This document shows, one piece after another, positions 22,713-40,877 of a stretch of DNA of 40,877 nucleotides; positions within the stretch are counted from its first letter, which is position 1, and each line of letters begins with the position of its first letter. The translations under genes and the position numbers were made by a program. The notes beneath the pieces are model-generated. The model searched no databases, was not told where the DNA came from, and saw only the letters and a list, made by a program, of their open reading frames with translations. The DNA is from Oscillospiraceae bacterium (GTDB lineage Bacteria; Bacillota; Clostridia; Oscillospirales; Oscillospiraceae), in the NCBI GenBank assembly GCA_009785525.1, contig WQWC01000016.1:1-40877 (forward strand). The letters are read 5' to 3'.

Positions 22713-22961
22713 ATGGACAACTGCCACAAATTTTTCTGCAACCGCGAATGCAAATACTTCCCCTGCCATACGATTCCGGACGATAAAGATGGATTCAACT
22801 GTCTGTTTTGCTACTGCCCATTGTATTTGTTGGGAGACAAATGCGGCGGTAGATTCAGATACGATAAAAACATCAAGATTTGTACGGACTGTCACCTGCC
22901 GCATATGCCGGAGTATTACGAAACCATCACGGCTAAAATGAGGGAGCTTATCTACACGTGA
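22713..22961 (+). CDS. Cysteine-rich small domain protein (B12-associated)
   Basis: The 82-residue protein has ten cysteines (C4, C9, C13, C18, C30, C33, C35, C44, C57, C60) and several histidines, enough for one or more metal sites. The pattern, beginning CHKFFCNREC with a later CLFCYCPLY, matches the 'cysteine-rich small domain' family that is repeatedly found beside cobalamin genes and sometimes fused to them; its biochemical role is not known to me. The ATG at 22713 is the natural start, with AAAGGA about 13 bases upstream. A TTG 33 bases earlier is in frame but less likely. It has its own promoter and no room for a riboswitch. Its position just ahead of the B12 riboswitch operon supports a corrinoid or metal role. 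Confidence 0.8.
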   Translation: MDNCHKFFCNRECKYFPCHTIPDDKDGFNCLFCYCPLYLLGDKCGGRFRYDKNIKICTDCHLPHMPEYYETITAKMRELIYT

Positions 22962-23007
22962 TATTGTCTGTGATTGCTGGTTATTTCCATAATATTTGAA
23001 ATCCCTA

Positions 23008-23036
23008 TTGACAAACCGGGGATTTTATGCCAGACT
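23008..23036 (+). promoter_or_regulatory. Probable promoter of the riboswitch operon
   Basis: TTGACA at 23008-23013 matches the consensus. The best -10 at 17 bases is CAGACT (23031-23036), which is weak. The start of transcription would fall just before the riboswitch. Confidence 0.5.
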
Positions 23037-23054
23037 AATACCTAAAGTAAATAC

Positions 23055-23193
23055 TGCTGATTCGGTTCACCTTGTCTAAAAGGTGAAGCATGGAATGGGG
23101 TGAGATGCCCCGCGAGTAGGTCACTGTGAAGCCCGAAAGGGATAAGTCAGATACATGCCGAATCAGTACCGCACCTGCCTCCACCGGGTTGCG
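23055..23193 (+). promoter_or_regulatory. Cobalamin riboswitch
   Basis: The RNA closes with an 11-bp stem (23055-23065 with 23158-23168). Inside are the hairpin TTCACC/GGTGAA (23066-23087), the hairpin GGGG/CCCC (23097-23111) with a TGAGATG loop, the ACTGTGA segment (23123-23129), a GAAA-capped CCC/GGG hairpin (23132-23141), and AAGTCAGATACATGCC (23144-23159), which fits the B12 box apart from one missing base. A further hairpin with CGCA/TGCG ends (23170-23193) is in the place of P13. Its loop CTCCACC can pair with GGTGAG of the GGGG hairpin, as expected for the kissing loop. It controls the operon starting at 23473, and such elements shut expression off when cobalamin is bound. Confidence 0.88.
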
Positions 23194-23204
23194 AACTGTT
23201 TTTG

Positions 23205-23247
23205 AGCGTTCGTTTACCTATTTGCAGGTACGGGCGCTATTATTTTT
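23205..23247 (+). terminator. Riboswitch-controlled terminator with candidate antiterminator
   Basis: AGCGTTCGT (23205-23213) pairs with ACGGGCGCT (23230-23238), and ACCT pairs with AGGT inside; ATTATTTTT follows. CCGCACCTGC (23169-23178) can instead pair with GCAGGTACGG (23224-23233), nine of ten positions, which would break the terminator. This gives a plausible on/off switch. Confidence 0.7.
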
Positions 23248-23315
23248 GGCTTTATAGATTGGACATATATAAAGCAAACCTCCTGAACCATATCTAAAAA
23301 ATATTTCCCTACCCT

Positions 23316-23391
23316 GTGCAAATGCGGTGTCGCCGGATTGGGTCTCCGTCGGCACCGTACCCGGCACATACAAATTACCGCACTGAATCCG
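23316..23391 (+). other. Second structured leader segment before the transporter genes
   Basis: GGTGTCGCCGGA (23326-23337) pairs with TCCGTCGGCACC (23345-23356) at 11 of 12 positions, and GTGC/GCAC (23316-23319, 23364-23367) encloses it. TGCGGT (23323-23328) could instead pair with ACCGCA (23377-23382). No T run follows, so it is not a terminator. The rest of the 511-base gap 22962-23472 holds only the riboswitch and terminator; I see no gene in it. Confidence 0.5.
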
Positions 23392-23472
23392 GTGTTGTTG
23401 GATTCTGTAATTAATTAAAAGCAGTGAAAAATATCAATAAAAACATATAACATATCAAGGAGGAATTATCGA

Positions 23473-24663
23473 GTGAAGAAGAAGATTTTAGCAGTGCTAA
23501 CAGCATCTATCCTCGCCATAGCGCTACTCACGGCTTGCGCGGAGGGAGAACAAACTTCGCAGTCTGACACTACGCCTGCCGCAACTGCGCCTGGCACAAC
23601 ACAACCGGCAACAACAGAGCCGGCAGAAACTGAACCCGCGGAAACTGAGCCGGAAAGCAGGTTTATGGAGATTCGTTACGCCACTGGATTTTCGGTAGAG
23701 TACTTAGAGGATAATATTACAATAGTCACTGACGCGGAGAATCAGAGATTTCTGCTTGTGCCGAGAGGACAGGCTGTACCGTCCGGCTTCGATGACGATA
23801 TGATAGTGATTGAAACCCCAATACAACGGGCGGTATTTGGTTCTACCACACATGTTGGGATGATTGCCCCGTTCGATATCTGGGGAAATATAGCAGGTAT
23901 CGTCACCCCTCACGGACAGGTGCCGTATCTGGACGCGGACATTGACGCGTCGGGCTATGATATTCTGTATCTTGGCGGTTGGAGAGACCCGGATTACGAG
24001 CTTCTGATGCTTTCAAATCCTGATCTGGCGTTCGTATATACTGGCTCGTCGCCTCAAACTGAGCTGATAACTATGCTGGAAGAGCTGGGTATCCCATTTG
24101 CTGTCAATAACGAGTACATGGAACCGACATATCAGGGTCGCATGGAATGGATGCTGTTTTTCGCACCGTTCTTTGGGATAGACGAACAAGTTGTCAATTA
24201 TGTAGATAATCAGTTCGAGATGCTTGAGGAAATGTATGCGATAGTCGCGGGTGCAGAGCATCGGCCGAATGTCGCGTGGGGTTCAGTTTGGCAGGGTACC
24301 ATATGGGTATCGGGCGCGGATTCGTTTGTAGCGAATCAAGTGCGATCGGCCGGCGGCGAATGGATGTTTGATGTGGGCGGACAGATCAGTTTTGAGGAAT
24401 TTTACGTAGCGTTGGCAGAGGCGGATGTATTTATACTCGCAATGAACGAGCAATCTGTCCCGGATTACGAGTCGCTTTTAGCAATGGTGCCGATTATAGA
24501 AGATGCCCCGGTGATTGTTAACAGAAATGTGTGGCAGTTCCACGTTGGCTACTGGTATTTTACAGACCGGCTTGCCGGGCAGGTTTTGGATTTGGCCGCT
24601 ATCTTTCATCCCGATTTGTTTCCCAATCATGCGGTCTTTAACTATAACCCGCTTGCCGAATAA
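23473..24663 (+). CDS. btuF: Corrinoid-type ABC transporter substrate-binding lipoprotein
   Basis: The 396-residue protein is the extracellular capture subunit of the importer. It has a lipoprotein signal with lipobox LTAC (lipidated C22), then a Thr/Pro/Glu-rich spacer (about 28-62) of repeated TEPAE units, then a periplasmic-binding fold of the BtuF/FecB type with two lobes (GMIAPFDIWGN in the first, YILGGW-like and VAWGSVWQGTIWVSG in the second). The GTG start at 23473 follows AAGGAGG at good spacing. It is the first gene after the B12 riboswitch and is followed by the permease and ATPase. The riboswitch and cbiZ downstream argue for a corrinoid ligand rather than a ferric siderophore, but the sequence alone does not decide this. 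Confidence 0.85.
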   Translation: MKKKILAVLTASILAIALLTACAEGEQTSQSDTTPAATAPGTTQPATTEPAETEPAETEPESRFMEIRYATGFSVEYLEDNITIVTDAENQRFLLVPRGQAVPSGFDDDMIVIETPIQRAVFGSTTHVGMIAPFDIWGNIAGIVTPHGQVPYLDADIDASGYDILYLGGWRDPDYELLMLSNPDLAFVYTGSSPQTELITMLEELGIPFAVNNEYMEPTYQGRMEWMLFFAPFFGIDEQVVNYVDNQFEMLEEMYAIVAGAEHRPNVAWGSVWQGTIWVSGADSFVANQVRSAGGEWMFDVGGQISFEEFYVALAEADVFILAMNEQSVPDYESLLAMVPIIEDAPVIVNRNVWQFHVGYWYFTDRLAGQVLDLAAIFHPDLFPNHAVFNYNPLAE

Positions 24664-24701
24664 TCGCTAAAAGACTCCAGAGAAAGAAGGTGGCGTCAAT
24701 A

Positions 24702-25736
24702 ATGCAACCGAGTATTGAAACAGAGAGGATAGCCAGACGCAGGATTTTGTTTATCGTCCTTCTGCTGGGCGTGGCTGTGATCTTTTGCCTGAACATCGCC
24801 ATGGGCTCGGTAAATGTGCCGCTGCCGGATGTTGTCCGGACTTTATTCGGGCGCGAGATTGAAAGTTCGGTCCATGAATCCATCATAATGAGAATTCGCC
24901 TGCCGAGGACGTTAGCGACCTTGGCAGGCGGTGCATGCCTTGCGATTTCCGGCTTAATGCTGCAAATATTCTTTGGCAATCCGATTGTCGAGCCGTATGT
25001 GCTGGGCATTTCTTCCGGTTCTATCATGTTTGTCAGCATCGTTATGCTGGGCGGGGTTACGTTTGGATTCAATATACTGTCCCCATTGTTCATGTTTATC
25101 GGTTCATTGATAGGGGCGTTTATCGTCATGCTTGCGGTTGTGTTTGCCGCCGGTAAAGTAAAGAGCATTGTAACATTGCTTGTCATAGGCATAATGATAG
25201 GTTTTCTTGCCGGGTCTGTCAGAAGTATTTTAACTGCGTTTGCCGACCTTGAAACCGTTGGCAGGCTCACCTTATGGACGATGGGCAGTTTTTCCGGGTT
25301 TACATGGCAGCAAGTTAGGATACTCCTTGCCATAACAGGGGTTTTCTCATTGGCGGCCATCCTGATGTCCAAGCCGCTGAACGCGCTGCTGCTTGGCGAG
25401 AAATACGCTGTCAGCATGGGTGTTGGGATTCGTTTCTTCCGTATTGCCATCATCGTCATCGCAAGCGTGCTGACGGCGGCGTTGACAGCGTTTGCCGGGC
25501 CGATTTCATTTGTGGGATTAGCTGTGCCGCACATGATGCGGATGGGATTTAAGACGGCGGATAACCGAATCTTGCTGCCTGCGAGTATTCTTGGCGGGGC
25601 ACTTATGATGAGTCTTTGTGACCTTATCGCAAGAACGGTATTAGCGCCGCGTGAGCTTGCGATAGGTGCCATTACGGCATTGGTTGGCGCACCGCTGCTC
25701 ATCTTCATGCTGGTGAGGAGGAAAAACGTGTTATGA
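24702..25736 (+). CDS. btuC: BtuC/FecCD-family ABC transporter permease
   Basis: The 344-residue membrane protein has the many hydrophobic helices of the BtuCD type, with family signatures RLPRTLATLAGGACLAISG near residue 65 and FAGPISFVGLAVPHMMR near residue 270, the latter being the region that contacts the ATPase. I use the ATG at 24702, 9 bases after AAGGTGG, rather than the GTG four codons earlier. Its stop overlaps the start of the ATPase gene (ATGA), so translation is coupled. It forms the transmembrane channel of the corrinoid importer. Confidence 0.9.
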   Translation: MQPSIETERIARRRILFIVLLLGVAVIFCLNIAMGSVNVPLPDVVRTLFGREIESSVHESIIMRIRLPRTLATLAGGACLAISGLMLQIFFGNPIVEPYVLGISSGSIMFVSIVMLGGVTFGFNILSPLFMFIGSLIGAFIVMLAVVFAAGKVKSIVTLLVIGIMIGFLAGSVRSILTAFADLETVGRLTLWTMGSFSGFTWQQVRILLAITGVFSLAAILMSKPLNALLLGEKYAVSMGVGIRFFRIAIIVIASVLTAALTAFAGPISFVGLAVPHMMRMGFKTADNRILLPASILGGALMMSLCDLIARTVLAPRELAIGAITALVGAPLLIFMLVRRKNVL

Positions 25737-26929
25737 GTCAAGCATTAATGCGAACAGCGGATTTGAAAGTAGGTTATGGAAAACGCTGTGTTGTTGACGA
25801 GGTTGATATTGAAGCGCTGCGCGGAGGCATGGTATGCCTTTTAGGGCCGAACGGTTCAGGGAAGTCAACAATTCTCCGAACTTTATCGGGCATGTTGAGT
25901 CCTGTTGCGGGTGCGGTTTATATTGAGAATATCAACATACAATTGCTTCCGAAATCAAGCCTTGCAAGGCGGATGGCTGTTGTATTGACCGACAAGTTGC
26001 AGCCGGGGCTTTTGACCGCCTTTGAAATCGCCGCGATGGGCAGGCATCCATACACAGGCTTTTTCGGCAAACTGAAAGAACATGACCGTGAGGTTGTTAT
26101 GGATGCCCTCACAAGCGTCAGGGCGCAGGAACTGACGCACCGGTACTATAATGAATTGAGCGACGGCGAAAAGCAAAAAGTGATGATTGCCCGCGCGCTT
26201 GCGCAGGAACCGGAACTGATTGTACTAGATGAGCCGACCAGCCATTTGGATATCAGTCACCGCGCGGAAGTCATAGAAGTCCTGGCCAGATTGTGCAGTG
26301 AGAAAGGCATCACGATCATCATGGCGCTGCACGATATTGACCTTGCGCTGAAAGGCTGCAAAACTGTGCTGATGATAAAAAACGGAGAGATTATAGCCCA
26401 AGGCCCGCCGGAGCAAATCGTGCGGGAGGGCATCATTCAGGAGCTTTATGATATTTCAAGTGCCAGATATGACGATTTGCTGTGCAGCCTGGAGTTGGGC
26501 AGTTACTCGCAAAAAAGCGCCTTGTTCATTATTGGCGGCGCGGGCACCGGGATACCGGTGTTTCGTGCGCTGCGCAGGGCTGGTTTTGGGATGGATTGCG
26601 GCGTGTTGCATCAAAGCGATGTTGACGCGCATGTCGCGCGCGCACTTTGCAACCATATTGTGACGGAAGATGATTTTCAGGCGATATCTGATGAAAATTA
26701 TGCCGCGGCATGTAAGTTAATGCAGGGGCATGATGTCATCATTGACACAGGATTTCCGGCTGGTGCAACTAACGCAAGGAACATGGACTTACTTCTTCTG
26801 GCGCTGGAAAAAGGCAAAAAGGTCTATACATTACGAGCGAAGGATAGCGTCTATTCTCCTTACGGCAGGCAACCTATATATTGCAATGCCGTGCCGGAGC
26901 TTATAACGACCCTTGGAGATTCGCGCTAG
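25733..26929 (+). CDS. btuD: BtuD-like ABC ATPase with extra C-terminal domain
   Basis: The first 255 residues are an importer ATPase: Walker A GPNGSGKST (38-46), signature LSDGEKQK (142-149), Walker B LIVLDEP (162-168) and the switch His in ALHDID. The protein then continues for about 140 residues, where FecC/BtuC-type ATPases normally end. The extension starts SALFIIGGAGTGIPVFRALR (263-282), a glycine-rich loop as in Rossmann folds, and later has VIIDTGFPAG and a lysine-rich strand. I do not recognise the extension. It could bind a nucleotide or corrinoid, or regulate the pump. The coding frame is continuous, so it is a true fusion. Confidence 0.88.
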   Translation: MSQALMRTADLKVGYGKRCVVDEVDIEALRGGMVCLLGPNGSGKSTILRTLSGMLSPVAGAVYIENINIQLLPKSSLARRMAVVLTDKLQPGLLTAFEIAAMGRHPYTGFFGKLKEHDREVVMDALTSVRAQELTHRYYNELSDGEKQKVMIARALAQEPELIVLDEPTSHLDISHRAEVIEVLARLCSEKGITIIMALHDIDLALKGCKTVLMIKNGEIIAQGPPEQIVREGIIQELYDISSARYDDLLCSLELGSYSQKSALFIIGGAGTGIPVFRALRRAGFGMDCGVLHQSDVDAHVARALCNHIVTEDDFQAISDENYAAACKLMQGHDVIIDTGFPAGATNARNMDLLLLALEKGKKVYTLRAKDSVYSPYGRQPIYCNAVPELITTLGDSR

Positions 26930-26958: not shown

Positions 26959-27948
26959 ATGTTAAAGTTGACTAATATCTCCCACCACCCAATGGACAGA
27001 GCAAAATTCGACAATGATTCCGGCAAACCGTCAGATTTTTTGCGCCGTAATGCCTTAGATGGATTTGAAGTCATGCAGTGCGGTGCGGATGAGATGGCGT
27101 GGTATCCGCCGGACAGCGTGATTGGTGTCCATATGCGCTACTGGCCGGTGTGTATAGACTTCTTCCGTGGTGACGTTACTGCGCTGTGCCAGGCGTTCGG
27201 CACTGACGATGTTTGGCAGCGGTATTACGGCGCGAGAACGCGTGATGAGTTCGTGTTGAAATATCGGGAAGGTCTTCGTGCGGCGGAAGACGCTGGGGCG
27301 CAGTATGCGGTGTTCCACGCCTCGCACACTTCACTCTCGGAGATTTTTACGAACGTGTTCAGCGCTGACTCCGGTGAAGTAATAGACGAATTTATTGCGC
27401 TTATAAACGATGTGCTGGACGGCTTTACATGTGATATGACACTGCTGTTTGAAAATCTGTGGTATCCGGGGATTACGCTGCTTGATGAGTCACTCGCGTT
27501 GAAGATGATGGAAGAGGTCCACCACCCCAATAAAGGCTTTATGCTGGATATCGGGCATATGATGATTACCAATCCGGCGCTGAGTTCTTACGTTGAGGCG
27601 GCGGAATACATAGCGTCGATTTTACGTGACAGACCCGCGATGCTTTCATATATCAAAGGTATCCACCTAAACGGTGCGCTGACGGGCAAGTATTTGCAAG
27701 CTGTCATGCAGGGCGAGGGTCTGCGTGATATAGAGGGCAGCTTTTGGGAGCGGTACGCTAATGCCTATAATCACGTCTCGCGTATCGACGCTCATGTGCC
27801 TTTTGCCGATGCGTCGATACAAACAGTGCTTGAACTTGTAAACCCTGATTATCTTGTGTTTGAGCTAATATCAGAGGATTTGCCCGAGTTAGAGAGATAC
27901 ATTGCTGAGCAACAGAAATTTTGTGGTTTTATAGAGGGGATTGACTGA
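26959..27948 (+). CDS. Xylose-isomerase-like TIM-barrel protein in the B12 operon
   Basis: This 329-residue protein resembles the sugar phosphate isomerase/epimerase (AP endonuclease 2-type) TIM barrel. Candidate metal ligands occur in the expected order: H125-like FHASHTS, E in LLFENLW, D and H in MLDIGHMM, H in IKGIHLNG, and E near the end (LVFELIS). The usual substrates are sugars or small acids, and none fits a known B12 step. It lies 29 bases after the ATPase gene and 1 base before the ChlI-like gene, so it belongs to the operon. It is the second member of this broad fold in the window, the other being fused to the acyl-CoA synthetase. Its role here is unknown. Confidence 0.75.
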
Positions 27949-27949
27949 G

Positions 27950-28969
27950 ATGGAACAAGCGAGAAAAGGCTATTGCTTCACCGCGATAGTCGGGCAGGAC
28001 GACATGAAAACCGCACTGATATTAAACGTGATAAACCCAAATCTGGGCGGCGTGTTGATACGCGGTGAAAAAGGCACGGCAAAATCAACAGCGGTACGCG
28101 CCTTGGCAGAGCTATTACCAGAGCGGGTGCAGGTCGCAGACTGCCGCTTTGGCTGTGCGCCGAACGACAAGGCACACATGTGCGGCGAGTGCCTTGAAAA
28201 GCTTACTAATCACAAGACACTGGAGCAGTCGCTCGCAAAGATGAAAGTCGTTGACCTGCCGGTGAGCGCAACTGAGGACAGAGTTGTCGGCACGCTTGAT
28301 ATGGAACACGCGATCAAAACCGGCGAAAAGAAGTTCGAGACCGGGATACTCGCAGGCGCAAATAGGAATATCCTATATGTGGACGAAGTAAATCTACTTG
28401 ATGACCACGTGGTAGATGTCTTGCTAGACTCCGCCGCGATGGGTGTCAACACAGTCGAGCGCGAGGGCGTTTCGTATACGCATCCCGCCAGGTTTATTTT
28501 AGTCGGGACAATGAACCCCGAAGAGGGTGACTTGCGTCCACAGCTTATTGACCGCTTCGCGCTGTCAGTAACGGTAATCGGCGAAAGAGACGCAGAAAAA
28601 CGCGTGCTCGTGATGGAAAACAGGCTGAAATATGAAGACGAGCCGGAGAAATTCTTTGAGGATTTTGAACCGATGCAACAGGCACTGCGCGACAGGATTA
28701 AAACTGCGGAGGGTCTTTTAGGTCAGGTTACATACTCAAGCAGAATACTCGAAAAAATTGCGAAAATATGCATTGCATTGGACGTGGATGGGCACAGGGC
28801 GGACATTGTAATGCTCAAGACCGCTATGACGCTTGCCGCCTATAGTGGGAGGACTGAGGTCACCGAAGAGGATGTTATGGAGGCGGCAAAGCTCACCTTG
28901 CCGCATAGGATGCGCAGAAATCCGTTTGAGGACGCCGTGCTGGATCTGTCGCAGATAGAGGGCATTTAA
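27950..28969 (+). CDS. bchI: Magnesium chelatase subunit I-like AAA+ ATPase
   Basis: The 339-residue protein is an AAA+ motor of the ChlI/BchI family. Walker A is GEKGTAKST (39-47), Walker [12 protein letters not shown], and the sensor region [18 protein letters not shown] is typical. Four cysteines (C65, C69, C78, C81) lie in a short insertion after the first helix and could bind a metal or iron-sulphur cluster. Such insertions occur in ChlI relatives of anaerobes. In chelatases this subunit powers insertion of a metal by the large CobN/ChlH-type subunit, together with a ChlD-type partner; both partners are in this operon. The ATG at 27950 follows GAGGGG. No bacteriochlorophyll genes are present, so the substrate is more likely a corrinoid. 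Confidence 0.9.
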
Positions 28970-28972: not shown

Positions 28973-29980
28973 GTGGCTACGGACAATTCGCGGCGATTAC
29001 TGGTGCTGTGGGCAACGGGACGCTGTAATTTGCAATGTCAGTATTGTTATGCCGATAGGGTCAGTGAGGCTGACATGGATTTCAACACCGCAAAGCGCGC
29101 AATTGATTTGCTGTCCGATAAACCGTTGAAGATACAGTTTGCCGGCGGTGAGCCGCTCTTAAATGTGCCGCTTATTGAGCAAATTCTTGACTATGCGAGC
29201 GAAAAATTCAAGGGTGTGCAGTTTTCCATCCAAACCAACGGCACATTGCTGGACGATGACGTTATCAGATTGCTCAAACGACACGAAGTTGCTATCGGCG
29301 TCAGTCTGGATGGAAAACTTGAAACGAATGAGCGATCCAGAGGTGGCACGCAGGGTGCGGTAAACGGGATACGGCTGTTACGGGAGCACGGCGTGACAAT
29401 CAACATTAATACAGTGGTCAGTGCGGCGAATGTCAGTAAGCTGCGTGATATGGTAGATTTAGCGTTATACTTTGGAAATGTTCACGGCATTGGACTTGAC
29501 TTGTTGAGGAACTCAGGCCGTGCGGCGGCACTTGGTTCTGAGGTAAGCGCCGCCAACGGCGAGATTTTGCGTGATGAATTAAGGGCGCTTTACGAATATC
29601 TGAAGAAAACAAATGCCGCCTCTCCGCGTAAAATTGTGATTCGCGAGTTTGAAAAGGCGCGGGCCTTGTTAAGAAACAAAACACCAGGCGAGGATTACTG
29701 TTACGCGGCGCAGGGCAACTCGTATGTCGTATTGCCGTCCGGGGATTGTTATCCATGCGGCGGATTGGCGCATGACTCAAAATACTTTATGGGTAATGTA
29801 TACTCTAAAATCAAGCCTCTTGCAATCCGTTGCGGAAGACCGGCAGAATGCGCGGATTGCCGGTATGCCGTGATTTGCCCCGGTGGATGTCCGGCCCGTG
29901 GACTGCTCAGCGGCGGTTTTGACAGGCTGGATTGTGTAATGAAAAAGACCACGTTTGAACTGCTTGAGGAGGATATATAG
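28973..29980 (+). CDS. Radical SAM/SPASM protein between the chelatase ATPases
   Basis: The 335-residue protein has the radical SAM motif C18-x3-C22-x2-C25 (CNLQCQYC), the GGEPL motif, and a C-terminal SPASM-like region with several cysteines (DCYPCGG, then CADCRYAVICPGGCPARG) that could hold extra iron-sulphur clusters. The group includes peptide-modifying and sulfatase-maturing enzymes. No precursor peptide gene is obvious beside it. The GTG at 28973 is 3 bases after the ChlI-like gene and the next gene begins 3 bases after it, so all three are tightly coupled. Its place between the two chelatase ATPases suggests it acts on the same tetrapyrrole or modifies one of the chelatase proteins. 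That is an inference only. Confidence 0.88.
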   Translation: MATDNSRRLLVLWATGRCNLQCQYCYADRVSEADMDFNTAKRAIDLLSDKPLKIQFAGGEPLLNVPLIEQILDYASEKFKGVQFSIQTNGTLLDDDVIRLLKRHEVAIGVSLDGKLETNERSRGGTQGAVNGIRLLREHGVTININTVVSAANVSKLRDMVDLALYFGNVHGIGLDLLRNSGRAAALGSEVSAANGEILRDELRALYEYLKKTNAASPRKIVIREFEKARALLRNKTPGEDYCYAAQGNSYVVLPSGDCYPCGGLAHDSKYFMGNVYSKIKPLAIRCGRPAECADCRYAVICPGGCPARGLLSGGFDRLDCVMKKTTFELLEEDI

Positions 29981-29983: not shown

Positions 29984-31876
29984 GTGACGAGAACGGTGTT
30001 CCCCTTCGCAGCGGTGCTGGGGCAGGAGAAAATCAAGAACGCGCTGATATGGAATCTAATTAATCCGCGTATAGGCGGCGTTTTGATTAGCGGCGAAAAA
30101 GGCACGGCGAAATCGACGCTGATACGTGGCGCGGCAGAGCTTGGCGACATGAAAATAATCGAATTGCCGCTTAACGTCACAGAAGACAGACTTGTTGGCT
30201 CAATCGACTTAAAACAGGCGCTGCAAAACGGGCGGCGCGAGCTGGAGCCGGGCATCCTCAAAGATGCTGACGGGAACATACTCTACGTTGACGAAGTCAA
30301 TCTGCTCAGCGACCACATCGTAAACGCACTGTTGGAGGTCGCGTCCAGCGGCGTCAATACCATCGAGCGCGAGGGGATATCGCATTCGCACCCCAGCCGG
30401 TTTGTTTTGATAGGCAGCATGAATCAAGAGGAAGGCAAGCTGCGTCCGCAATTTCTTGACCGCTTTGGCCTGTACGTTGAGGTTGAAGGAGAGAAAGACT
30501 TAATCACGCGCGTTGAGATTATGAAGCGCCGCGTCGCATTCGAGGGTGACCCTTTGGGCTTTATTGAAAATTGTGCAGACGAAACGCGGGATTTGACCGC
30601 CAGAATCAGTGCAGCCAGAATAAGGCTGCCGGAAGTCGAGGTCACGTCCAACGCGCATCGGTTCGCCGCGACGCTTGCGCAGGGCGTCCATAGCGCGGGT
30701 CATCGCGGAGAGCTTGCGCTTATAGAAACGGCAAAGGCTATCGCCGCGTTTGACGGCAGGCATATGCTAAATATAGATGACATCAAACAAGCGGCGGAGT
30801 ATGCCCTGCCTCATAGAGCGCAAGAGCCGCCTCCAGACGATTTCTATGAAGAGCCGCCGGAAGAATCTCCGGAGGAAGAGCAGACCGAACAAGAGTCTCC
30901 TGAGCAAGATGAAGATCCTCCGCCTCCACCGGAGGCGCAAGAAGCGCAACAGCCGCCAGATATAACTCCGCCCGAAAGGGATGATGCAGACAATGCGGAC
31001 ACTTCTAACAATGAAGATGAGGACGATATCCAAGAAGCGGGGGACGCGTTCGTCATTCCGCGTTGGATTGACCCGCATGTCACACGGCAGATAAACAAGG
31101 GTTCCGGCAGACGAAATCTTGTCCGCAGCGGGACTAATCAAGGCCGGTATGTCAATCACCGGATGGCGGGCAGTGAGCGTGTGAGCGACTTGGCGTTTGA
31201 CGCAACAGTCCGCGCCGCCGCGCCGTTTCAGAGCATACGCGATAAGGCCGGACGCGCCATCGCTATTGAGGGTGATGATCTGCGTGTCAAAATACGTGAG
31301 AAGCGGACGGGCGGGAGTATCCTGTTTGTCGTGGACGCCAGCGCGTCTATGGGTGCGAATAAGCGCATGAAAGAGGTTAAGGCCGCGATTTTGTCAATGT
31401 TGAACGTATCGTACCAAAAGCGCGACAAGGTCGGGCTGATAGCGTTTCGCAAGGACAGCGCGGAGCTGCTTTTAGGCATCACTCGCTCTGTCGATCTGGC
31501 GCAGAAGAAACTCGCGCAGTTGCCGACAGGCGGCAAAACGCCGCTGTCAAAGGGGCTGGACTTGGCGTATGAAGTCATTATGGGCCTGAGGATGAAAGAG
31601 CCCGACGCGGTCCCGACATTAGTTCTAATCTCAGACGGGAGAGCAAGCGGGAAAAAGGCGCCAGGCAGCAATCCGTTTGGCGAGGCGCTGAAATCAGCCG
31701 AACGCATCGGCAACCAAGGTATCCATACGATCATTTTAGACACAGAAAATGACTTCATAAAATTCCATCTTTGCCAAAAGCTGAATGAAAAACTGCGCGG
31801 AACGCTGCTCACGATGGAGGATATGAAAGCAGATGGCATCGTGGAAGCAATCGCGGCGACACGGCGCGCGACATAA
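29984..31876 (+). CDS. bchD: Magnesium/cobalt chelatase subunit D-like AAA+/VWA protein
   Basis: The 630-residue protein has an N-terminal AAA+ domain, a proline- and acid-rich linker (about 280-345, many PEE and PPP runs), and a C-terminal von Willebrand A domain with the metal-adhesion motif DASAS (about residue 450), a conserved Thr in TGGKTPLS, and SDGRAS. In typical ChlD proteins the Walker motifs are degenerate, but here Walker A (GEKGTAKST) and Walker B ([11 protein letters not shown]) are both intact, so this subunit may hydrolyse ATP itself. It links the ChlI motor to the large CobN subunit in a chelatase. The GTG start follows AGGAGG. Confidence 0.9.
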
Positions 31877-33039: not shown

Positions 33040-33877
33040 AGGCGTAAGCAAAACCTATAGTAATATAACCGCCGTACACGATTTGAACATGGAGATCCAA
33101 AAGGGTGAGTTTTTTGGTCTGTTGGGCCCTAACGGCGCGGGGAAAACCACCATCATCCGTATGACCATGGCGCTGACTCCGCCGACTTCCGGCTCTATCG
33201 AAATCGGCGGACAGAAGATTCGCAGGGACTCAACAGATATAAAGCAGAAATTCGGAATCGTCCCGCAATACAGCAATTTGGAAAACGATTTAACCGCGTA
33301 TGAAAACCTCGAATTCCACGGACGGCTATACGGTCTGCCGAAGCAGCTGCGGCGCAGGCGTATTGATGAACTGCTGGAGTTTGCTGACCTGACAAGCAGA
33401 AAAAAAGACATCGCAAGGACATTTTCAGGTGGTATGCAACGCAAGCTGATGATAGCCAAGACACTGATGCACGACCCGGAGATTATGCTGCTTGACGAAC
33501 CTACAGTCGGGCTTGACGCGACAACGCGGCGTAAAATCTGGGATTTCCTCCGCCAATTGCGTGAAAACGGCCTGACCATATTTATGACAACGCATTATCT
33601 GGAAGAGGCGCAAGCACTCTGTGAACGCGTTGGCCTTATTGACGAGGGAAATCTCATCATGCTGGATACGCCGGAAAAGATTATTCAAAGCGCGGGACAA
33701 TTCGTGCTTGACTGCTATCAAAACGGAAAGACAACGCAGAAGTTCTTTGAAGACAGAGAATCGGCAATTGCCGCGGCCGAGCAAACAGAGGGAAGCTTTA
33801 AAGTGCGGGAGGCAAATCTTGAAGACGCCTTTATCAAGTTGACAAATAAAGACCTGGGGGTGCGGAATGAGATTTAG
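33026..33877 (+). CDS. ABC-2 type exporter ATPase
   Basis: This 283-residue ATPase is of the ABC-2 exporter type (drug/antibiotic resistance DrrA-like) rather than the importer type. Walker A is GPNGAGKTT (36-44), the signature is FSGGMQRK, Walker B MLLDEPTVGLD, and the switch His lies in TTHYLEEA. The C-terminal 70 residues form the usual regulatory strand domain. It overlaps the end of cbiZ by 14 bases and its permease by 11 bases, so it is translationally coupled in the operon. What is exported is unknown; candidates are a modified corrinoid, a metal-free corrin or a toxic tetrapyrrole. Confidence 0.92.
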   Translation: MIVYKGVSKTYSNITAVHDLNMEIQKGEFFGLLGPNGAGKTTIIRMTMALTPPTSGSIEIGGQKIRRDSTDIKQKFGIVPQYSNLENDLTAYENLEFHGRLYGLPKQLRRRRIDELLEFADLTSRKKDIARTFSGGMQRKLMIAKTLMHDPEIMLLDEPTVGLDATTRRKIWDFLRQLRENGLTIFMTTHYLEEAQALCERVGLIDEGNLIMLDTPEKIIQSAGQFVLDCYQNGKTTQKFFEDRESAIAAAEQTEGSFKVREANLEDAFIKLTNKDLGVRNEI

Positions 33878-34595
33878 TTCGATTATTTGGAAAGAATGGC
33901 TGGTTCTAAAGAATAAATTCATCAGCACAACGCTGGGCGCGATTGTCGGCCCGTTGCTGTTTCTTGTCGCGTTCGGCTGGGGACTTGGCAATGCCGTCGA
34001 AATAGACGGCGGCAGTTATATCGACTTTGTCATACCAGGAATAATCGCCATGCTTACCATGACGACCAGTTTTAACGTCGTTGCGAATGATATAAACATA
34101 TCACGTGTATATTCAAAGACCTTTGAAGCGGTGATGATCGCTCCGATTAAAACGGCTGTCTTTGTGCTGGCAAGAGTGACCGCAAGCGCGCTGCGCGGGC
34201 TGTATGGCGCCGCGTTGATTTTGGTAATAGCTCTTTTGTTCGGGGCCAATCTGCATATTGATTGGTATTTTGTCTTAGTTTTGATATTGAACTGCTTTGT
34301 TTTCTCAACAGCCGGCATCATTGCCGGTATAATCGTTGATTCACATGCCGACATGGCGAAAATAACAAGCTTTGTGATAACTCCAATGTCATTTTTATCC
34401 GGCACGTTTTTCCCACTTGACAGATTTCCGGATTTTCTGCGCGTTATCTTTGAACTATTGCCGCTGACGCAAGCAATAATCGGGCTGCGCGAAGGGGTAT
34501 CCGCCGCCGGGAGTTGGATTGTTCCGGTAGCTCTCTTCGGATATCTCATCGTAATGCTGCCGATTTCCGTAATTCTTTGCAGACGCGCCGAGTAA
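33867..34595 (+). CDS. ABC-2 type exporter permease
   Basis: The 242-residue membrane protein has six predicted hydrophobic helices and the ABC-2 permease pattern, with the conserved SFLSGTFFPLDRFPDFLR stretch near residue 175 and the final LREG. It pairs with the preceding ATPase. GTGCGGA precedes the ATG that overlaps the ATPase stop. It is followed at 13 bases by cobN. An exporter inside a B12-repressed import and chelatase operon is unusual. Confidence 0.9.
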   Translation: MRFSSIIWKEWLVLKNKFISTTLGAIVGPLLFLVAFGWGLGNAVEIDGGSYIDFVIPGIIAMLTMTTSFNVVANDINISRVYSKTFEAVMIAPIKTAVFVLARVTASALRGLYGAALILVIALLFGANLHIDWYFVLVLILNCFVFSTAGIIAGIIVDSHADMAKITSFVITPMSFLSGTFFPLDRFPDFLRVIFELLPLTQAIIGLREGVSAAGSWIVPVALFGYLIVMLPISVILCRRAE

Positions 34596-34608: not shown

Positions 34609-37600
34609 ATGTTCAAAATGGTATTTATTCACCAGCGCAATGGCAGTGAACTGTTTCTCAAGCAGGCGTTTGAGCAGATAAAAAATACATATGGTGACGA
34701 GGTGCATTTGGATTTTTTTATCGATGGCGAGGTTGATTATGTCGAGACGGAGTATGAGGCCTGCCTATCCGCGCTTGAATCTGCCGATTTTGTCTATGTG
34801 AGCGTGCACGGTGCCTTGCCGTATTTTAAGAAGTTCAGCGTTTTGCAGAAAATCTTTATGGGCAAAATCCCGTCTCTTGTCTATTCGGGAATAGACGAAG
34901 AGAATGCCGAAATGCAAAAGCAGAGTTCCCTGTCTGATGTGTTGTGCGGGCAGCTTATGAGGTATCTGTTTGCAGGGGGTAAAGAGAATCTCAGTAGCTT
35001 TATCCGCCTGATAATGAAAGAAATCGGCGGGATAGACTGCAAACCGGATGAGGTAATCATCCCGAAATGGGATGGGCTATACGGACTGCCGGAAGGCATA
35101 AGCGAGAACGAATATCTGGAATCCGTATCTTCCCAGACATCAAAGCCTGTCATCGGTATACTGATACATTATCATAATGTTCAGAACGAAAACACACAAC
35201 ATATAGACGCTTTGATGGATTCTATCAAAGCGCACGGAGCGGTGCCGCTGGCACTGTATACGAATATCGTACCGATAGGGACGAGCCATACGGGATTGCG
35301 CGGCGCGCTTGAAAAATACATGTTGCGGGACGGAAAATCTATCGTTGACGCGCTGATTGTCACGACAGGGTTTGCGCTCAGTCTGTTGTCCTCGCCGGGC
35401 GATGGGAAGTCACGGGTCGAGACAAGCATATTTGAGCTGCTGGATGTACCGGTGTTTCAAGCGATGAACACATTTTACAGCTATGAAAAATGGCGGGAGT
35501 CACTGGCCGGAGTGGACCCGATGCTGCTGAACTCAACTGTTTATCAGACGGAGTTCGACGGACAGATCATTACTGTGACAATTGCTTACTCAGAACTTAT
35601 ACAGACCCCGTACGGCACGAAAAATATAATGCGCCCGATACATGAACGTGTTGATAAGGTTGTGCGGTTGAGTATACATTGGGCAAAGCTTAAAAGAAAA
35701 AAAATGTGCGATAAAAAGGTCGCGATAATTCTGCACAATATGCCGCCAAGGGCGGACATGATAGGCTGTGCGTACGGCCTTGACACACCTGAATCGGTCT
35801 ATAACATGTACCGGCTTCTGCGTGAGCGCGGCTTGCCTCTTGAATATGAATTTGAAGACGGGCAGGAGATCATCAAGCAGATCACAGACGGCCTGACAAA
35901 CGACGGGCGTTTCCTGTCTGAAAGCGAGATGCTGGAGCGCAGTGCCGCCATCGCGGAAAGCGCCGACTATACACAATGGTTTGAATCCTTGCCGGAAAAG
36001 AATCTGGCTGAGTTAAAACGCGATTGGGGAGAGATGCCTGGCAGCTTCATGGTGGTTGATGACAAGATACTCATCCCCGGTATCCTCAACGGCAATCTGT
36101 TCATCGGACTCCAGCCTCCCCGCGCCTATGAGGAAAAGGCCGAGGAAATGTACCATTCGACCGATCTCGTCTGCCCATATCAATATCTGGCGTTTTACCG
36201 CTGGCTTGAGCGTAAATTTGGCGCGGATATTGTCGTTCACGTCGGTACGCATGGCACGATTGAATGGCTGCCGGGCAAAGAGATCGGCCTGTCGGATGAG
36301 TGCTATCCCGATTTGGCTATTGGCGACCTGCCGCATTTGTATCCGTATATCATCGACGTACCGGGTGAAGGCGTTCAGGCCAAACGGCGCACATCCGCCG
36401 TCATTCTCGATCATCTGATACCGTCAATGACTGAGGGCGGCATGTATGGTGCACTCGAAGATATTGACGACCTGATAGCGCAATACTACCGTGCGAAGTC
36501 TGAGAATCTGCCTAAGCTTGAGATATTGCCAGAGCAAATATGGGCGGAGGTTGAAGGCTCAGATCTGCATACAGACCTGGGTGTGTCGCGCGAGAGCTTT
36601 TTCAGCGACATTGACTCAGCCGCTGAAAAACTGCATCTGTGGCTCAGTGATATCAAAAGCTCAAAGATAAAAGACGGGTTGCATATATTCGGTGATGTTC
36701 CAACTGGTGAGCGTTACCGCAATATGCTGCGCTTGCTTGTTGCGGTTCCCAACGGCGATGTGCCGTCACTAAGGGAGGGACTTTGCGCCCTGTATGGCGA
36801 GGACTATGAGGAACTGCTTGCAAATCCGGGTGAAAAGCGGCCGGACGGTCGCACCAATGCAATGGCTCTTGAGGAAATTGACGAGCGCGGGCGTATATTG
36901 TTTGAATCATTCAGTGAACTTGGATATACACCGGACGCTGTTGCCGCAGCTGTCGATGCGTTGGACGGAGACGGAGACAACTCCGCGCTTAAAAAATGCT
37001 TGGGCTTCGTCGCGAACGAAATCAAACCAAGACTCGACCTCACAACGGATGAAATGAAATACTTTGAACGCGGCATTGACGGCAGATTCGTCGCCCCCGG
37101 GCCGTCCGGCGCGCCAAGCCGCGGAAATGCGACAATACTTCCCACCGGCAGGAATTTCTATATGATTGACCCGACCACCGTGCCAAGCCGCAGCGCGTGG
37201 GAGACTGGCAAACTTCTTGGCGACCAGCTGCTACAGCGTTATCTTGACGACGAAGGTCAGTACCCAGAAAACGTGGCTATCGTCGTCTATTCAGGCGAGA
37301 CGATCAAGACATCAGGCGATGATATTGCTGAAATCATGTACCTGTACGGTGTACGCCCGGTGTGGATCAAAAACACCGACCGCGTGATAGATATTGAGGT
37401 CATTCCGCTTGAAGAATTAGGCCGTCCAAGAATAGATGTCACACTGCGTATAAGCGGATTGTTCCGTGACACGTTCCCGAATCTTATTGAACGTATCGAA
37501 GACGCGGTGAATCTGATTGCCTCGCTGGATGAGGATATTGAGATGAACTTTGTGAAAAAGCACGTGATGGCCGATTTTGACGAGTTCATCAGCCAGGGAA

Positions 37601-38349
37601 TGCAGAGGGAGCAGGCGTTTGAACATGCAAGGCTGCGCGTGTTCGGTTGCCCTCCCGGGACATACGGCGCGGGCGTCGATATCATGGTCAACAGCAAGAA
37701 GTGGGAGACAGCGGAGGATCTGGGTCGCGCGTATATCAATTGGGGTGCGCACGCTTACGGCAAAAATATTCACGGCACAAAGCTTGAGGATGTGTTTTCC
37801 CGCCGCCTGGAATCCACTGATGTCACCGTCAAAAATATATCGTCGTACGAGGCCGACATGCTCGACAGTGACGATTTCTATAACTATCATGGCGGCCTGA
37901 ACGCGGCGGTTAAGTCCCAGAAAGGCAGCTATTCCGCGTCTTACACAACGAACGCCGGAGACCCGAAGCATGTCGTTACAAGAAGCACCCAAGAGGAGAC
38001 GTCGCGTATCATGCGTGCCAGAATTAACAACCCGAAGTGGATAAAGGGTTTGAGAGAACACGGTTTCAGGGGTGCACAGGAGTTTTCCGCGATGGTCGAT
38101 ATCGTATTCGGCTGGGACGCGACAAGCAACGTTATAGAGGATTGGATGTATGATTCTATCACAAAGACATATCTGCTCGATAAAGCACTGCAAACGTGGA
38201 TTCGGGATGTAAACCCGTGGGCGTTGCAGGCAATCAGCGAAAGATTGCTTGAGGCCGCGCAGCGCGGCATGTGGGACGCGGACGAAAATATGCTGGAGCA
38301 GATAAGGGAGATCTATCTGTCTGTAGAGAATGATCTGGAGGGCATGTGA
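34609..38349 (+). CDS. cobN: CobN-type cobaltochelatase large subunit, copy 1
   Basis: The 1246-residue protein is the full-length large subunit that holds the tetrapyrrole and metal in CobN/ChlH-type chelatases. The family motif HxGTHG is intact (H544 and H548, with VGTHGTIEWLPGK), as is the following CYPDL and YPYIIDVPGEG stretch. GGGSD-like and Lys/Arg-rich regions typical of CobN follow, and the C-terminus (WIRDVNPWALQAISERLLEAAQRGMW) is the classical ending. GGGGGG lies about 8 bases before the ATG. With the ChlI- and ChlD-like subunits this makes a three-part, ATP-driven chelatase. In aerobic B12 synthesis it inserts cobalt into hydrogenobyrinate diamide, but no such pathway is present here, so the reaction may be salvage-related or run in the removal direction. 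It is followed directly by a second copy. Confidence 0.93.
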   Translation: MFKMVFIHQRNGSELFLKQAFEQIKNTYGDEVHLDFFIDGEVDYVETEYEACLSALESADFVYVSVHGALPYFKKFSVLQKIFMGKIPSLVYSGIDEENAEMQKQSSLSDVLCGQLMRYLFAGGKENLSSFIRLIMKEIGGIDCKPDEVIIPKWDGLYGLPEGISENEYLESVSSQTSKPVIGILIHYHNVQNENTQHIDALMDSIKAHGAVPLALYTNIVPIGTSHTGLRGALEKYMLRDGKSIVDALIVTTGFALSLLSSPGDGKSRVETSIFELLDVPVFQAMNTFYSYEKWRESLAGVDPMLLNSTVYQTEFDGQIITVTIAYSELIQTPYGTKNIMRPIHERVDKVVRLSIHWAKLKRKKMCDKKVAIILHNMPPRADMIGCAYGLDTPESVYNMYRLLRERGLPLEYEFEDGQEIIKQITDGLTNDGRFLSESEMLERSAAIAESADYTQWFESLPEKNLAELKRDWGEMPGSFMVVDDKILIPGILNGNLFIGLQPPRAYEEKAEEMYHSTDLVCPYQYLAFYRWLERKFGADIVVHVGTHGTIEWLPGKEIGLSDECYPDLAIGDLPHLYPYIIDVPGEGVQAKRRTSAVILDHLIPSMTEGGMYGALEDIDDLIAQYYRAKSENLPKLEILPEQIWAEVEGSDLHTDLGVSRESFFSDIDSAAEKLHLWLSDIKSSKIKDGLHIFGDVPTGERYRNMLRLLVAVPNGDVPSLREGLCALYGEDYEELLANPGEKRPDGRTNAMALEEIDERGRILFESFSELGYTPDAVAAAVDALDGDGDNSALKKCLGFVANEIKPRLDLTTDEMKYFERGIDGRFVAPGPSGAPSRGNATILPTGRNFYMIDPTTVPSRSAWETGKLLGDQLLQRYLDDEGQYPENVAIVVYSGETIKTSGDDIAEIMYLYGVRPVWIKNTDRVIDIEVIPLEELGRPRIDVTLRISGLFRDTFPNLIERIEDAVNLIASLDEDIEMNFVKKHVMADFDEFISQGMQREQAFEHARLRVFGCPPGTYGAGVDIMVNSKKWETAEDLGRAYINWGAHAYGKNIHGTKLEDVFSRRLESTDVTVKNISSYEADMLDSDDFYNYHGGLNAAVKSQKGSYSASYTTNAGDPKHVVTRSTQEETSRIMRARINNPKWIKGLREHGFRGAQEFSAMVDIVFGWDATSNVIEDWMYDSITKTYLLDKALQTWIRDVNPWALQAISERLLEAAQRGMWDADENMLEQIREIYLSVENDLEGM

Positions 38350-40877
38350 TGAATGTAAACGCGCATGTGATATGCTTCTGCTGCGACGCGGAAAGCCGTG
38401 TCTGGCGTCCGCTTTTCGATAAGGCCGGGATAACGCTGACATCAGTAACTATGGCGGAAATGGGCGACAAGCAACGGCTTGAAGATGTCCGCAAGACGAT
38501 TGTCGATTTGGTGACAGGGAGTTCGCGTTCGGTCGTGTTGTTTAACCATTTCACCATGGATATGCAGGTTGAGGAGTATTTCCGCACGTTGCCGAAAGAA
38601 ACGATAAGCGTCCCAATCGGCGGAGAAGCTATATTGCTCGGCTGCGGCACAGCAGAGTCGGCGCATGTTGAGGCGATAAATAAGTATCTGCATTATTCAG
38701 GCGACGAGAATGTTCGCAGTGCCGGTGAATACATCCGCAAGCATTTGCTTGGGGACGAGCGTATTCTTCACGTCGATCCTCCTGTCGAAAAAGCCTTCGA
38801 CGGTATTTACTGCTTCAACAGCGGCACGGTTTATACTTCATTGGTACAATATCTTGCAAAAAGCAAAGATTTCGCCACTTATGTCGGGATATTCTTTCAC
38901 AGAAACAATCTTGTGCGGGATGATTTGGCCTCTACTAAAAAACTGGCCGAGCAGCTTGAGGCGAAAGATGTTGGTGTCATCCCCGTATTTACCGGCTCAA
39001 ATACAGACGAGCCGCGCTTTAGCGAAATTGTGGACACTTATTTCACATTACACGGCAGACTGAAAATTGAGGCGTTGGTCAACTTGCAATTGTGGGCGAT
39101 AAAAGCCGAGGAAGGCCGAAGCGTCGCGGAGCAATATGTTTTTGAATTTGAACGTATGGGCATCCCGATCATCTGTCCGATTCAAAGCCATTTCATCACG
39201 GCACAGCAATGGCGCGAGTTGCCAGTACCCATCAGTGCCGATATGTCTGGTGCGTATATCGCCCCGGAAATGGCGGGAATGATAGAGCCTATCATCATCT
39301 CAGTCCGCGGCGAAAACGGCAAAGCGGAAGCATTGCCAGAGCGGATTGAATATCTCGCGAACAGAATCGCCCGGCTTGTCAGACTGCGGACAAAGCACAA
39401 CGGCGAAAAGAAAATTGTCATCATGCTGCACAATTCTGTGTGCGCCGGAGTGGAAGCGACGATTGGGAAAGCATTCGGCCTTGACGCGTTTGAAAGTGTC
39501 GTAGGGATACTGACGCGACTTGAGGCGGAGGGGTATCAAACAGGTGAGTATCCTGAGACCGGCGAGGCACTGCGTGAATTGTTCATGGAAAAGAAAGCAT
39601 TTTCCGATTTCCGATGGACGGCGGTGGAAGATATCGTCAACAGCGGTGGCTGTCTATACAAAATGCCGGTTGCCGGTGAGTATGACCGTTATTATGCCGA
39701 GTTGCCTGATGAACTGCAGCAATATATGGAGAAAACCTGGGGCGAACCGCCGGGCGAAGGCATGGCACTGGATGAAAGTCTCATCATCACCGGCTTGAAC
39801 TTCGGGAATATAACGGTGATGGTTCAGCCAAAGCGCGGGTGCTATGGTGCAAAATGCACCGGTGAGGTCTGTAAAATCCTCCACGACCCGGCGTGTCCGC
39901 CGCCGCACCAGTACCTTGCTACATATCGCTATATTGAGCACATACTCAATGCGGACGTGTGTATCGACATTGGGACGCATGGCAGCGTTGAGAACCTGCC
40001 CGGCAAATCCAATGGGCTGTCCGGGCTTTGCTGGCCTAATATCGTTATGGGGTCAATACCAAGCTTTTATATCTATAACGCGGGCGTCACAAACGAAAGT
40101 CCGCTGGTCAAACGCCGGATGAACGCCGTGATTATAGACCATCTGCCGCCGCCGAGCATGGGTGCCGATGAGAACACACGGCAGCTTGTCCGCAAAATCG
40201 AGGAATACTTTACCGCCAAATCCATGGGCAACGGGCAGGATAAAGAAGCTGAAATTGACATATGCGCACTACTGAGTATCATTCCGGCGGCGGAACGGAT
40301 CATGTCGCGTGCGGATGGATTTGAACAGGGGCTGTATGAAGTATCCGGCGCTGTCAAAGTCGCTGAAGAGGCCATGAAAATCAGTACGCCGCATGTATTC
40401 GGCAAAATCCCAAACGAAGAAGAGGTTGAGCGGTTTATAATGGAAGTCTACAGGGGAGATGGTCTTGAGTATGACACGGATTCCCCGGATGCGCAGAACA
40501 TCAGGGAAGGGCTCATGCGTACGGATAATGAGATGAAGATGCTGATTCGCGGACTCTCTGGCGGATATATCCCCGCCGGTGAGGGAGGGATGCCGGATGA
40601 AAATGGCAAAAATATCCTGCCCACCGGGCGGAATATGTTTGGACTGAATACGGATAAAGTGCCGACAAAAACCGCATATGCGCGCGGCAAGCTGCTGGCA
40701 ATCCAGCTTCTTGAAAGCTATCAAAAAGATGAGGGCAGACTTCCCGAAAGCGTCGCGATGAACATGATATCGCTCAATATCACCCGAACCAACGGGGAAC
40801 AGCTGTCACAGTTTCTCTATCTGCTGGGGGTAGTGCCGGTTTGGGATGGGCTGGAGCGTGTAACAGGTTTACGGGTA
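38349..40877 (+). CDS. CobN-type large subunit, diverged copy 2 (cut by right edge)
   Basis: This frame starts at the ATG of TGATG, overlapping the copy 1 stop by one base, and is open to the window end, giving 843 residues of a protein that is probably of full CobN length. It resembles copy 1 in order and spacing but is strongly diverged. The HxGTHG motif reads D540-I-GTHG, so the first His is replaced by Asp while H544 is kept. E and LPGK of the next segment remain, but the Trp before them becomes Asn (VENLPGK). A cysteine-rich stretch CYGAKCTGEVC (about residue 500) is absent from copy 1 at that place. The change at a likely metal ligand suggests a different metal, a different tetrapyrrole, or a non-catalytic partner role. 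Confidence 0.88.
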   Translation, partial: MNVNAHVICFCCDAESRVWRPLFDKAGITLTSVTMAEMGDKQRLEDVRKTIVDLVTGSSRSVVLFNHFTMDMQVEEYFRTLPKETISVPIGGEAILLGCGTAESAHVEAINKYLHYSGDENVRSAGEYIRKHLLGDERILHVDPPVEKAFDGIYCFNSGTVYTSLVQYLAKSKDFATYVGIFFHRNNLVRDDLASTKKLAEQLEAKDVGVIPVFTGSNTDEPRFSEIVDTYFTLHGRLKIEALVNLQLWAIKAEEGRSVAEQYVFEFERMGIPIICPIQSHFITAQQWRELPVPISADMSGAYIAPEMAGMIEPIIISVRGENGKAEALPERIEYLANRIARLVRLRTKHNGEKKIVIMLHNSVCAGVEATIGKAFGLDAFESVVGILTRLEAEGYQTGEYPETGEALRELFMEKKAFSDFRWTAVEDIVNSGGCLYKMPVAGEYDRYYAELPDELQQYMEKTWGEPPGEGMALDESLIITGLNFGNITVMVQPKRGCYGAKCTGEVCKILHDPACPPPHQYLATYRYIEHILNADVCIDIGTHGSVENLPGKSNGLSGLCWPNIVMGSIPSFYIYNAGVTNESPLVKRRMNAVIIDHLPPPSMGADENTRQLVRKIEEYFTAKSMGNGQDKEAEIDICALLSIIPAAERIMSRADGFEQGLYEVSGAVKVAEEAMKISTPHVFGKIPNEEEVERFIMEVYRGDGLEYDTDSPDAQNIREGLMRTDNEMKMLIRGLSGGYIPAGEGGMPDENGKNILPTGRNMFGLNTDKVPTKTAYARGKLLAIQLLESYQKDEGRLPESVAMNMISLNITRTNGEQLSQFLYLLGVVPVWDGLERVTGLRV

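Follow-up and report, generated by a model that had tools for sequence, protein, structure and literature searches.

What does an ATP-driven cobaltochelatase do in a bacterium that has an early-cobalt corrin route of its own? This question is raised by a 40,877-base stretch of DNA from an Oscillospiraceae bacterium (assembly GCA_009785525.1; genome 2.16 Mb, 70 contigs, 96% complete), which is the complete contig WQWC01000016.1 (C16) and is referred to here as the window. Behind one cobalamin riboswitch (23046–23176, + strand), twelve genes follow each other on one strand from position 23473 to the contig end, with intergenic distances of −14 to +29 bases, in the order substrate-binding protein (SBP), BtuC, BtuD, TIM barrel, ChlI, radical S-adenosylmethionine (SAM)/SPASM protein, ChlD, CbiZ, ATP-binding cassette (ABC)-2 exporter pair, CobN1 and CobN2. 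An initial annotation had described such a near-gapless run with this gene content and had read it as a system for corrinoid salvage or remodelling. The riboswitch was recovered with the RF00174 model, and profile matches confirmed the families of all genes but the SBP. Salvage or remodelling is likewise supported by the riboswitch, the BtuFCD-like import genes, CbiZ, the conservation of the unit across the class and the induction by starvation of the corresponding operon in Dehalobacter restrictus (PMC4285132).

The window block corresponds to this D. restrictus operon, operon-2, and is of a type already described: a riboswitch stands ahead of the first gene (as a focused-search match only), and corrinoid-type ABC import, CbiZ, CobN, ChlI and ChlD lie in a single run. 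When corrinoid is scarce, the transcripts of operon-2 are reported to rise 346-fold and its proteins 46-fold on average (PMC4285132). We tentatively favour, at close to an even chance, the reading that the block is a corrinoid-starvation salvage system related to operon-2, in which corrins that are damaged or have been salvaged receive cobalt from CobN1 working with ChlI/ChlD. A shortage of cobalamin would switch on expression through the riboswitch, SBP, BtuC and BtuD would bring corrinoids into the cell, and CbiZ would cleave the nucleotide loop to free the ring for rebuilding with the lower ligand that the cell itself uses. Any corrin ring that lacked cobalt, on arrival or later, would then be loaded by CobN1 and the ATP motor ChlI/ChlD, and the ABC-2 pair would export a by-product. 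CobN2 might share the ChlI/ChlD motor for a second substrate or help to supply metal via its cysteine site, and the radical SAM enzyme might act on the ring, modifying or repairing it, or on a partner protein. Of these steps, expression when cobalamin runs short, corrinoid import and cleavage by CbiZ have good support; the substrate and direction of the metal reaction we infer, cobalt insertion being deduced from the family membership of CobN1 and the presence of an ATP motor, and the roles of CobN2, the radical SAM protein, the TIM barrel and the exporter are guesses.

The gene run behind the riboswitch

The riboswitch aptamer was matched by RF00174 at 38.3 bits (E 1.4e-7; gathering score 31.5) in a focused search of a 2.3-kb stretch, with the laxer filters of a short search only, whereas a scan of the whole window at the gathering threshold gave no hit. 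Given the focused match, we discarded the absence of a riboswitch suggested by that scan, and riboswitches ahead of homologous operons support the window riboswitch as real: one was present upstream in all five loci of the window type (the CbiZ kind, see below) with upstream DNA in view, namely our own and those of genomes G482, G572, G552 and G446. An open reading frame (ORF) lies between riboswitch and operon in G552, and an SBP-like ORF in G446; the former (locus L056, 9396–10409, +) is an HNH-repeat, homing-endonuclease-associated ORF ahead of BtuC. The initial annotation had begun the block at 22713. The run from 23473 stands as described, but 22713–22961 (+) encodes a small cysteine-rich protein (PF04071) that lies just ahead of the riboswitch and is not part of the regulated run. 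Further upstream, a strong, terminator-like inverted repeat of 17 pairs (21900–21938) separates two gene blocks.

All twelve genes are on the + strand. The first product (23473–24663) is probably an SBP and a corrinoid-binding protein: it has a lipoprotein-like start and shares 28–35% identity with proteins encoded in four homologous operons, and the assignment rests on its position and its similarity to the SBP genes of these operons. No Pfam or NCBIfam family was matched by this protein, and a PDB sequence search gave a spurious match only. It is followed by a BtuC-type FecCD permease (24690–25736; PF01032, 260 bits) and a BtuD-type ABC ATPase (25733–26929; PF00005). CbiZ, an adenosylcobinamide amidohydrolase (31897–33039; PF01955, 186.9 bits), carries a C-terminal extension, and the exporter pair consists of a DrrA-like ABC ATPase (33026–33877; PF00005; TIGR01188 284.8 bits, below its cut-off of 312.45) and an ABC-2 permease (33867–34595; PF01061, 92.5 bits).

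The presumed motor is made up of a ChlI-type AAA+ subunit (27941–28969), whose top NCBIfam matches TIGR02442 and TIGR02030 were both below cut-off, and a ChlD-type subunit with AAA and VWA domains (29984–31876; PF13519, AAA_lid_2). Each has an ATP-site motif, GEKGTAKS being the loop of ChlI, and ChlD also has a metal-ion-dependent adhesion site (MIDAS) motif, DASAS. The TIM-barrel protein (26959–27948; PF01261, 43.2 bits) had no useful PDB relative by sequence. Another PF01261 TIM barrel of the window (16672–19128, −) is fused to an AMP-binding enzyme and adjoins HMGL-like and aminotransferase class IV genes, and a trimeric [FeFe] hydrogenase-like set (Fe_hyd_lg_C, Complex1_51K, 2Fe-2S thioredoxin-like) occupies 5464–9629 (−).

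Two unlike CobN proteins and a SPASM partner

Judged by its sequence, CobN1 (34609–38349; 1246 residues) is a canonical CobN. It scored 961.3 bits with the curated CobN model TIGR02257 (cut-off 822.05) and remained below the cut-off for the magnesium chelatase BchH (TIGR02025, 751.6 versus 829 bits). Its closest PDB relative was CobN 7c6o (749 bits; HmuS, 335 bits), and it retains YHGG as well as HVGTHG, its form of the motif H-x-G-x-H-G, which work on HmuS describes as common to the whole superfamily, with a second histidine that is essential in HmuS (PMC12583661). Furthermore, CobN1 clustered beside named CobN proteins in a tree from which G742a was left out, its CobN1 being in pieces; G742b was not in the alignment.

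CobN2 (38349–40877; PF02514, 589 bits) is a divergent large subunit of which 843 residues are encoded up to the contig end. The window end shares 114 identical bases with the start of contig C50, where the reading frame continues to C50:1152, for a full length of 1188 residues. The two CobN proteins are 26% identical over the best stretch, and CobN2 groups in one clade with proteins from G482, G572 and G446 at a support of 100; because of this low identity and the separate clades, a recent duplication was rejected. With TIGR02257, CobN2 reached 333.3 bits, from the window part alone. It carries an insert with the pattern C-x4-C-x4-C-x7-C (residues 498, 503, 508 and 516) about 24 residues ahead of the active-site motif; three of the four cysteines are present in the sister clade from G390 and G750, and the remaining 19 of 25 aligned sequences are without the insert. 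The motif H-x-G-x-H-G itself is altered in all four CobN2 proteins (DIGTHG in our own, HVGTGG in the other three) and intact in the other 21 sequences. A second CbiC gene follows CobN2 in G482 and G572, which belong to one genus, and its product is 78–81% identical to that of the copy in the main corrin cluster. When plasmids were searched with the window part of CobN2, only distant relatives were obtained, the best at 33.2% identity among the matches listed. An AlphaFold model of this part was too poor to be used (predicted local distance difference test, pLDDT, 39.9).

The radical SAM/SPASM enzyme (28973–29980; PF04055) has a CX3CX2C motif and seven further cysteines, in what we take to be the SPASM pattern, and all of these are common to the five orthologues, which are 42–46% identical to the window protein. 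It reached no NCBIfam cut-off among the matches listed, the best being a ranthipeptide maturase; matches to the tetrapyrrole enzymes NirJ and Ahb were weak, those to peptide maturases stronger. A peptide maturase with an adjacent precursor gene was judged unlikely, there being no room for one beside the gene here or in G572, although no precursor search was made. At E ≤ 1e-25 the protein was found in no other of 295 genomes of the order, a plasmid search gave distant relatives only (best 30.1% among the matches listed), and its AlphaFold model (pLDDT 42.3) was also too poor to be used.

Conservation of the unit and the host's own corrin route

CobN is rare: it was found in 4 of 394 genomes of the order and in 12 of 391 genomes of the class, our own included in both counts, and 10 of these 12 were over the cut-off. 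The two others, G496 and G602, had PF02514 matches below cut-off only and were excluded from the CobN-positive set. CbiD was present in all ten class genomes with CobN over the cut-off as opposed to 108 of 391 overall (hypergeometric 1.9e-6, kinship not corrected), and in 10 of 12 when the weak matches, neither of them from a CbiD-positive genome, were included. CbiK exceeded its cut-off in 11 of the 12 other genomes with CobN that were tested. Organisms that insert cobalt early by CbiK or CbiX should not need a costly ATP-driven late chelatase, yet ten of ten CobN genomes carry cbiD.

The block was not peculiar to our genome, a possibility that we rejected: as the initial annotation required for its reading, it was found conserved in relatives, reshuffled yet kept together in five other members of the class and in one named relative, the Oscillospiraceae metagenome-assembled genome Emb289P1bin49 (L019). 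The latter was the one relative obtained from a contig scan with CobN1, which relied on poorly conserved stretches as patterns; its proteins are 82–98% identical to ours, and its isolate name presumably points to a termite gut sample. The loci were of two kinds. Seven are of the CbiZ kind (our own, L019, G482, G572, G552, G446 and G742), with CbiZ in six of them, the G742 contig beginning inside BtuD. The exporter pair occurs in six of seven (not in G446), the radical SAM gene in five of seven (not in L019, where 43 bases separate ChlI and ChlD, nor in G446), and CobN2 in four of the five loci traceable past their end (not in G552; L019 and G742 are cut), whereas the TIM-barrel gene was seen only in our own locus and L019. 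Since gene order varies among the loci, their shared content does not merely reflect a lack of rearrangement. The radical SAM protein is thus a recurrent yet dispensable operon partner, and CobN1 and CobN2 need not occur together, G552 having CobN1 alone and G446 having CobN2 with CobN1 remnants. In G446 these short remnants lie at L062 18252–19175 (−), and CobN2, ChlI, ChlD and CbiZ are intact.

Loci of the other kind (G390, G317, G286, G750, G576 and G612, with G674 showing CobN alone) encode CobN proteins about 28–33% identical to CobN1 over long matches, mostly alongside FecCD transport genes, ChlI and ChlD. These loci gave no match to CbiZ or the radical SAM protein, and G390 has the exporter pair. 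In G317 (L028, L029), CbiK, CobN, ChlI, ChlD and CbiD form one same-strand run, with both chelatase classes side by side. A cobalamin riboswitch lies near the G317 and G612 loci, and none was listed in the scanned stretches of G390, G286, G750 and G576. These scans covered 14 neighbour stretches, with L019, L027, L029, L031, L033, L038, L051, L052, L055, L057, L059, L065 and the short search loci left out.

That no corrin ring synthesis genes are present, as had been noted at the outset, holds for the window but not for the genome. Convergent with the operon, C50 carries genes with best matches to cobQ, hemL, hemB, cobA-hemD, hemC, hemA-sirC, cbiL, cbiC and cobD, and further cbiB, cbiX and, near the contig end, a GATase_3 domain that is perhaps cbiA. 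On C27 we found cbiD, cbiG, cbiJ and two more tetrapyrrole methylases, on C2 cobT behind a riboswitch, and on C23 a riboswitch ahead of BtuC- and BtuD-like genes; CbiK was sought in this genome and not found. By these matches, with individual steps partly checked, the genome has an anaerobic, early-cobalt corrin route with CbiX as its own class II chelatase, and because of this the class I chelatase of the window is surplus. The initial annotation had named a complete pathway that uses the window chelatase in its normal step as the case that would count against it; the pathway is there, and the step is served by a separate chelatase. The cobQ ORF (C50 1209–2048, −; 279 residues) still encodes the N-terminal half of cobyric acid synthase and, at its end, some 27 C-terminal residues, but has lost the GATase domain through an in-frame loss of ~220 residues relative to a Spirosoma CobQ, and the GATase_3 match near the end of C50 is the only one in the genome. 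This loss may be real or an assembly fault. If real, it may limit the supply of home-made corrinoid and would parallel D. restrictus, whose cbiH is reported to be broken (PMC4285132).

Competing explanations and known systems

Insertion by class I chelatases is ATP-driven (PMC7689651) whereas HmuS, a CobN relative, is described as removing metal independently of ATP (PMC12583661), so the ChlI/ChlD motor points to insertion, and the second CbiC after CobN2 in G482 and G572 suggests a tie to late corrin intermediates. Several points nevertheless weigh against salvage with cobalt loading. The hosts insert cobalt early, by CbiK in nearly all other CobN genomes tested and by CbiX in our own, so that any corrin without metal would have to be imported or result from damage, a source that we assume. 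CobW was not seen among the genes of the operon, only remnants of CobN1 are left in G446 although the rest of the unit stands, the second CbiC occurs in one genus only, and the parts given to the radical SAM protein, the TIM barrel and the exporter are guesswork. Alternatively, the two CobN subunits might remove the metal of imported corrinoids or exchange it for another, with the cysteine site of CobN2 taking the metal and CobN1 inserting cobalt. Two unlike CobN proteins on one motor, the four-cysteine insert and changed catalytic motif of CobN2, a chelatase surplus to synthesis, an exporter that could take the product away and the removal direction of HmuS, which the initial annotation had mentioned and PMC12583661 states, would all suit this. 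However, CobN1 is over the TIGR02257 cut-off and beside named CobN proteins, the motor points to insertion, the HmuS motif is absent, each CobN also occurs without an intact other, and destroying corrinoids during a B12 shortage makes little sense; metal exchange or removal, as the initial annotation had proposed it, thus gained no positive support, and we regard it as doubtful. Its most elaborate form, which we consider decidedly unlikely, would be a machine, powered by ATP, for altering the metal of corrinoids that are already complete, with CobN2 taking or handing over metal at a cysteine-liganded metal or iron-sulfur site, CobN1 inserting cobalt and the SPASM enzyme repairing or opening the ring. 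If true, this would make scavenged wrong-metal or damaged corrinoids usable; an enzyme that takes out or exchanges the metal of a complete corrin is not known to us.

The chelatase might also leave the metal unchanged: CobN with ChlI/ChlD could hold the corrin and load it onto, or reactivate it on, corrinoid proteins, in the manner of MoxR/VWA activators of metal enzymes. ChlI and ChlD belong to the AAA+/VWA group, and Acetobacterium woodii, which G482 very probably is, is reported to have 30 methyltransferase systems (PMC3315566), G482 having three CobN proteins. But CobN1 retains the superfamily catalytic motif, which a mere carrier would not need, and import and CbiZ fit salvage better, which makes such loading unlikely. 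As to substrate, another tetrapyrrole such as heme or siroheme could be processed, with the riboswitch and CbiZ serving a separate task. FecCD transporters also carry heme, and the radical SAM protein has its weak matches to NirJ and Ahb, although peptide maturases match better. The setting is corrinoid throughout, with a riboswitch in every CbiZ-kind locus where it could be seen, CbiZ in all but one and CbiC in two, and we therefore hold a non-corrin substrate to be very improbable. Cobalt loading within corrinoid-starvation salvage remains the reading we prefer. Knowing the substrate would show either how metal-free or damaged corrins are repaired or that class I chelatases have a further, new use, and it would aid the annotation of the numerous CobN-like proteins that have no clear function according to the HmuS authors, most of the remaining bacterial and archaeal superfamily sequences being described as not reliably annotatable (PMC12583661). 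CobN2 and the SPASM enzyme offer concrete test cases in acetogens.

Among known systems, HmuS, the heme de-chelatase with Met-79 and His-254 as heme ligands, shares the superfamily and PF02514 with both CobN proteins but differs in its domain V motif LSLDHxxEFMGG, at the position of which CobN1 has LDSDDFYNYHGG, CobN2 SSGKFGTQVQGG and the HmuS-type protein of B. finegoldii LSLDHVYEFMGG; the window block, unlike HmuS, also has ATPase subunits. Membership in HmuS was rejected on the absence of the motif, and the hmu neighbourhood seen in B. finegoldii (HmuY, TonB receptor, MotA/TolQ/ExbB, DUF2149) was not found around the window operon. Separately, plasmid pGLOV01 of Trichlorobacter lovleyi (L067 9762–15468) carries an HmuS-like CobN that groups with the B. 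finegoldii protein; it lies in an hmu-type neighbourhood (DUF2162, MotA/TolQ/ExbB, DUF2149, TonB receptors) and adjoins the corrinoid genes BzaF, CobT, cobyric acid synthase and CbiQ. Magnesium chelatase (BchH/ChlH-ChlI-ChlD) has the same three-subunit layout, whereas CobN1 is below the BchH cut-off and no chlorophyll genes were seen around it. Class I cobaltochelatase, CobN with ChlI/ChlD or CobS/CobT, is resembled by CobN1 in its TIGR02257 score and retained motifs and by the block in its ATPase subunits. Different are the host, which is on the anaerobic early-cobalt route with CbiX, the second, divergent CobN, and the lack in the operon of CobW, by which cobalt is reported to be supplied to class I enzymes (PMC7689651).

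The closest likeness is to operon-2 of D. restrictus, which is described as syntenic with a region of A. woodii and in which a riboswitch precedes genes for transporters, two CbiZ, CobN and magnesium-chelatase subunits (PMC4285132). The main text of that paper has no radical SAM protein and appears to name a single CobN, and the window block differs further in its additional TIM barrel, its gene order and a host with CbiX in place of CbiK. The SPASM partner and a CobN2 with four-cysteine insert and altered motif may be new here, as no title or abstract beginning among the open-access papers listed for CbiZ, CobN, the riboswitch and radical SAM proteins, most of them unopened, named such a partner or subfamily. 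In the features that define the type, a riboswitch, FepBCD/BtuCDF-like transport, CbiZ, CobN and magnesium-chelatase-like subunits, the window block, operon-2 and the A. woodii region agree, and G482 carries the same gene set as the window block.

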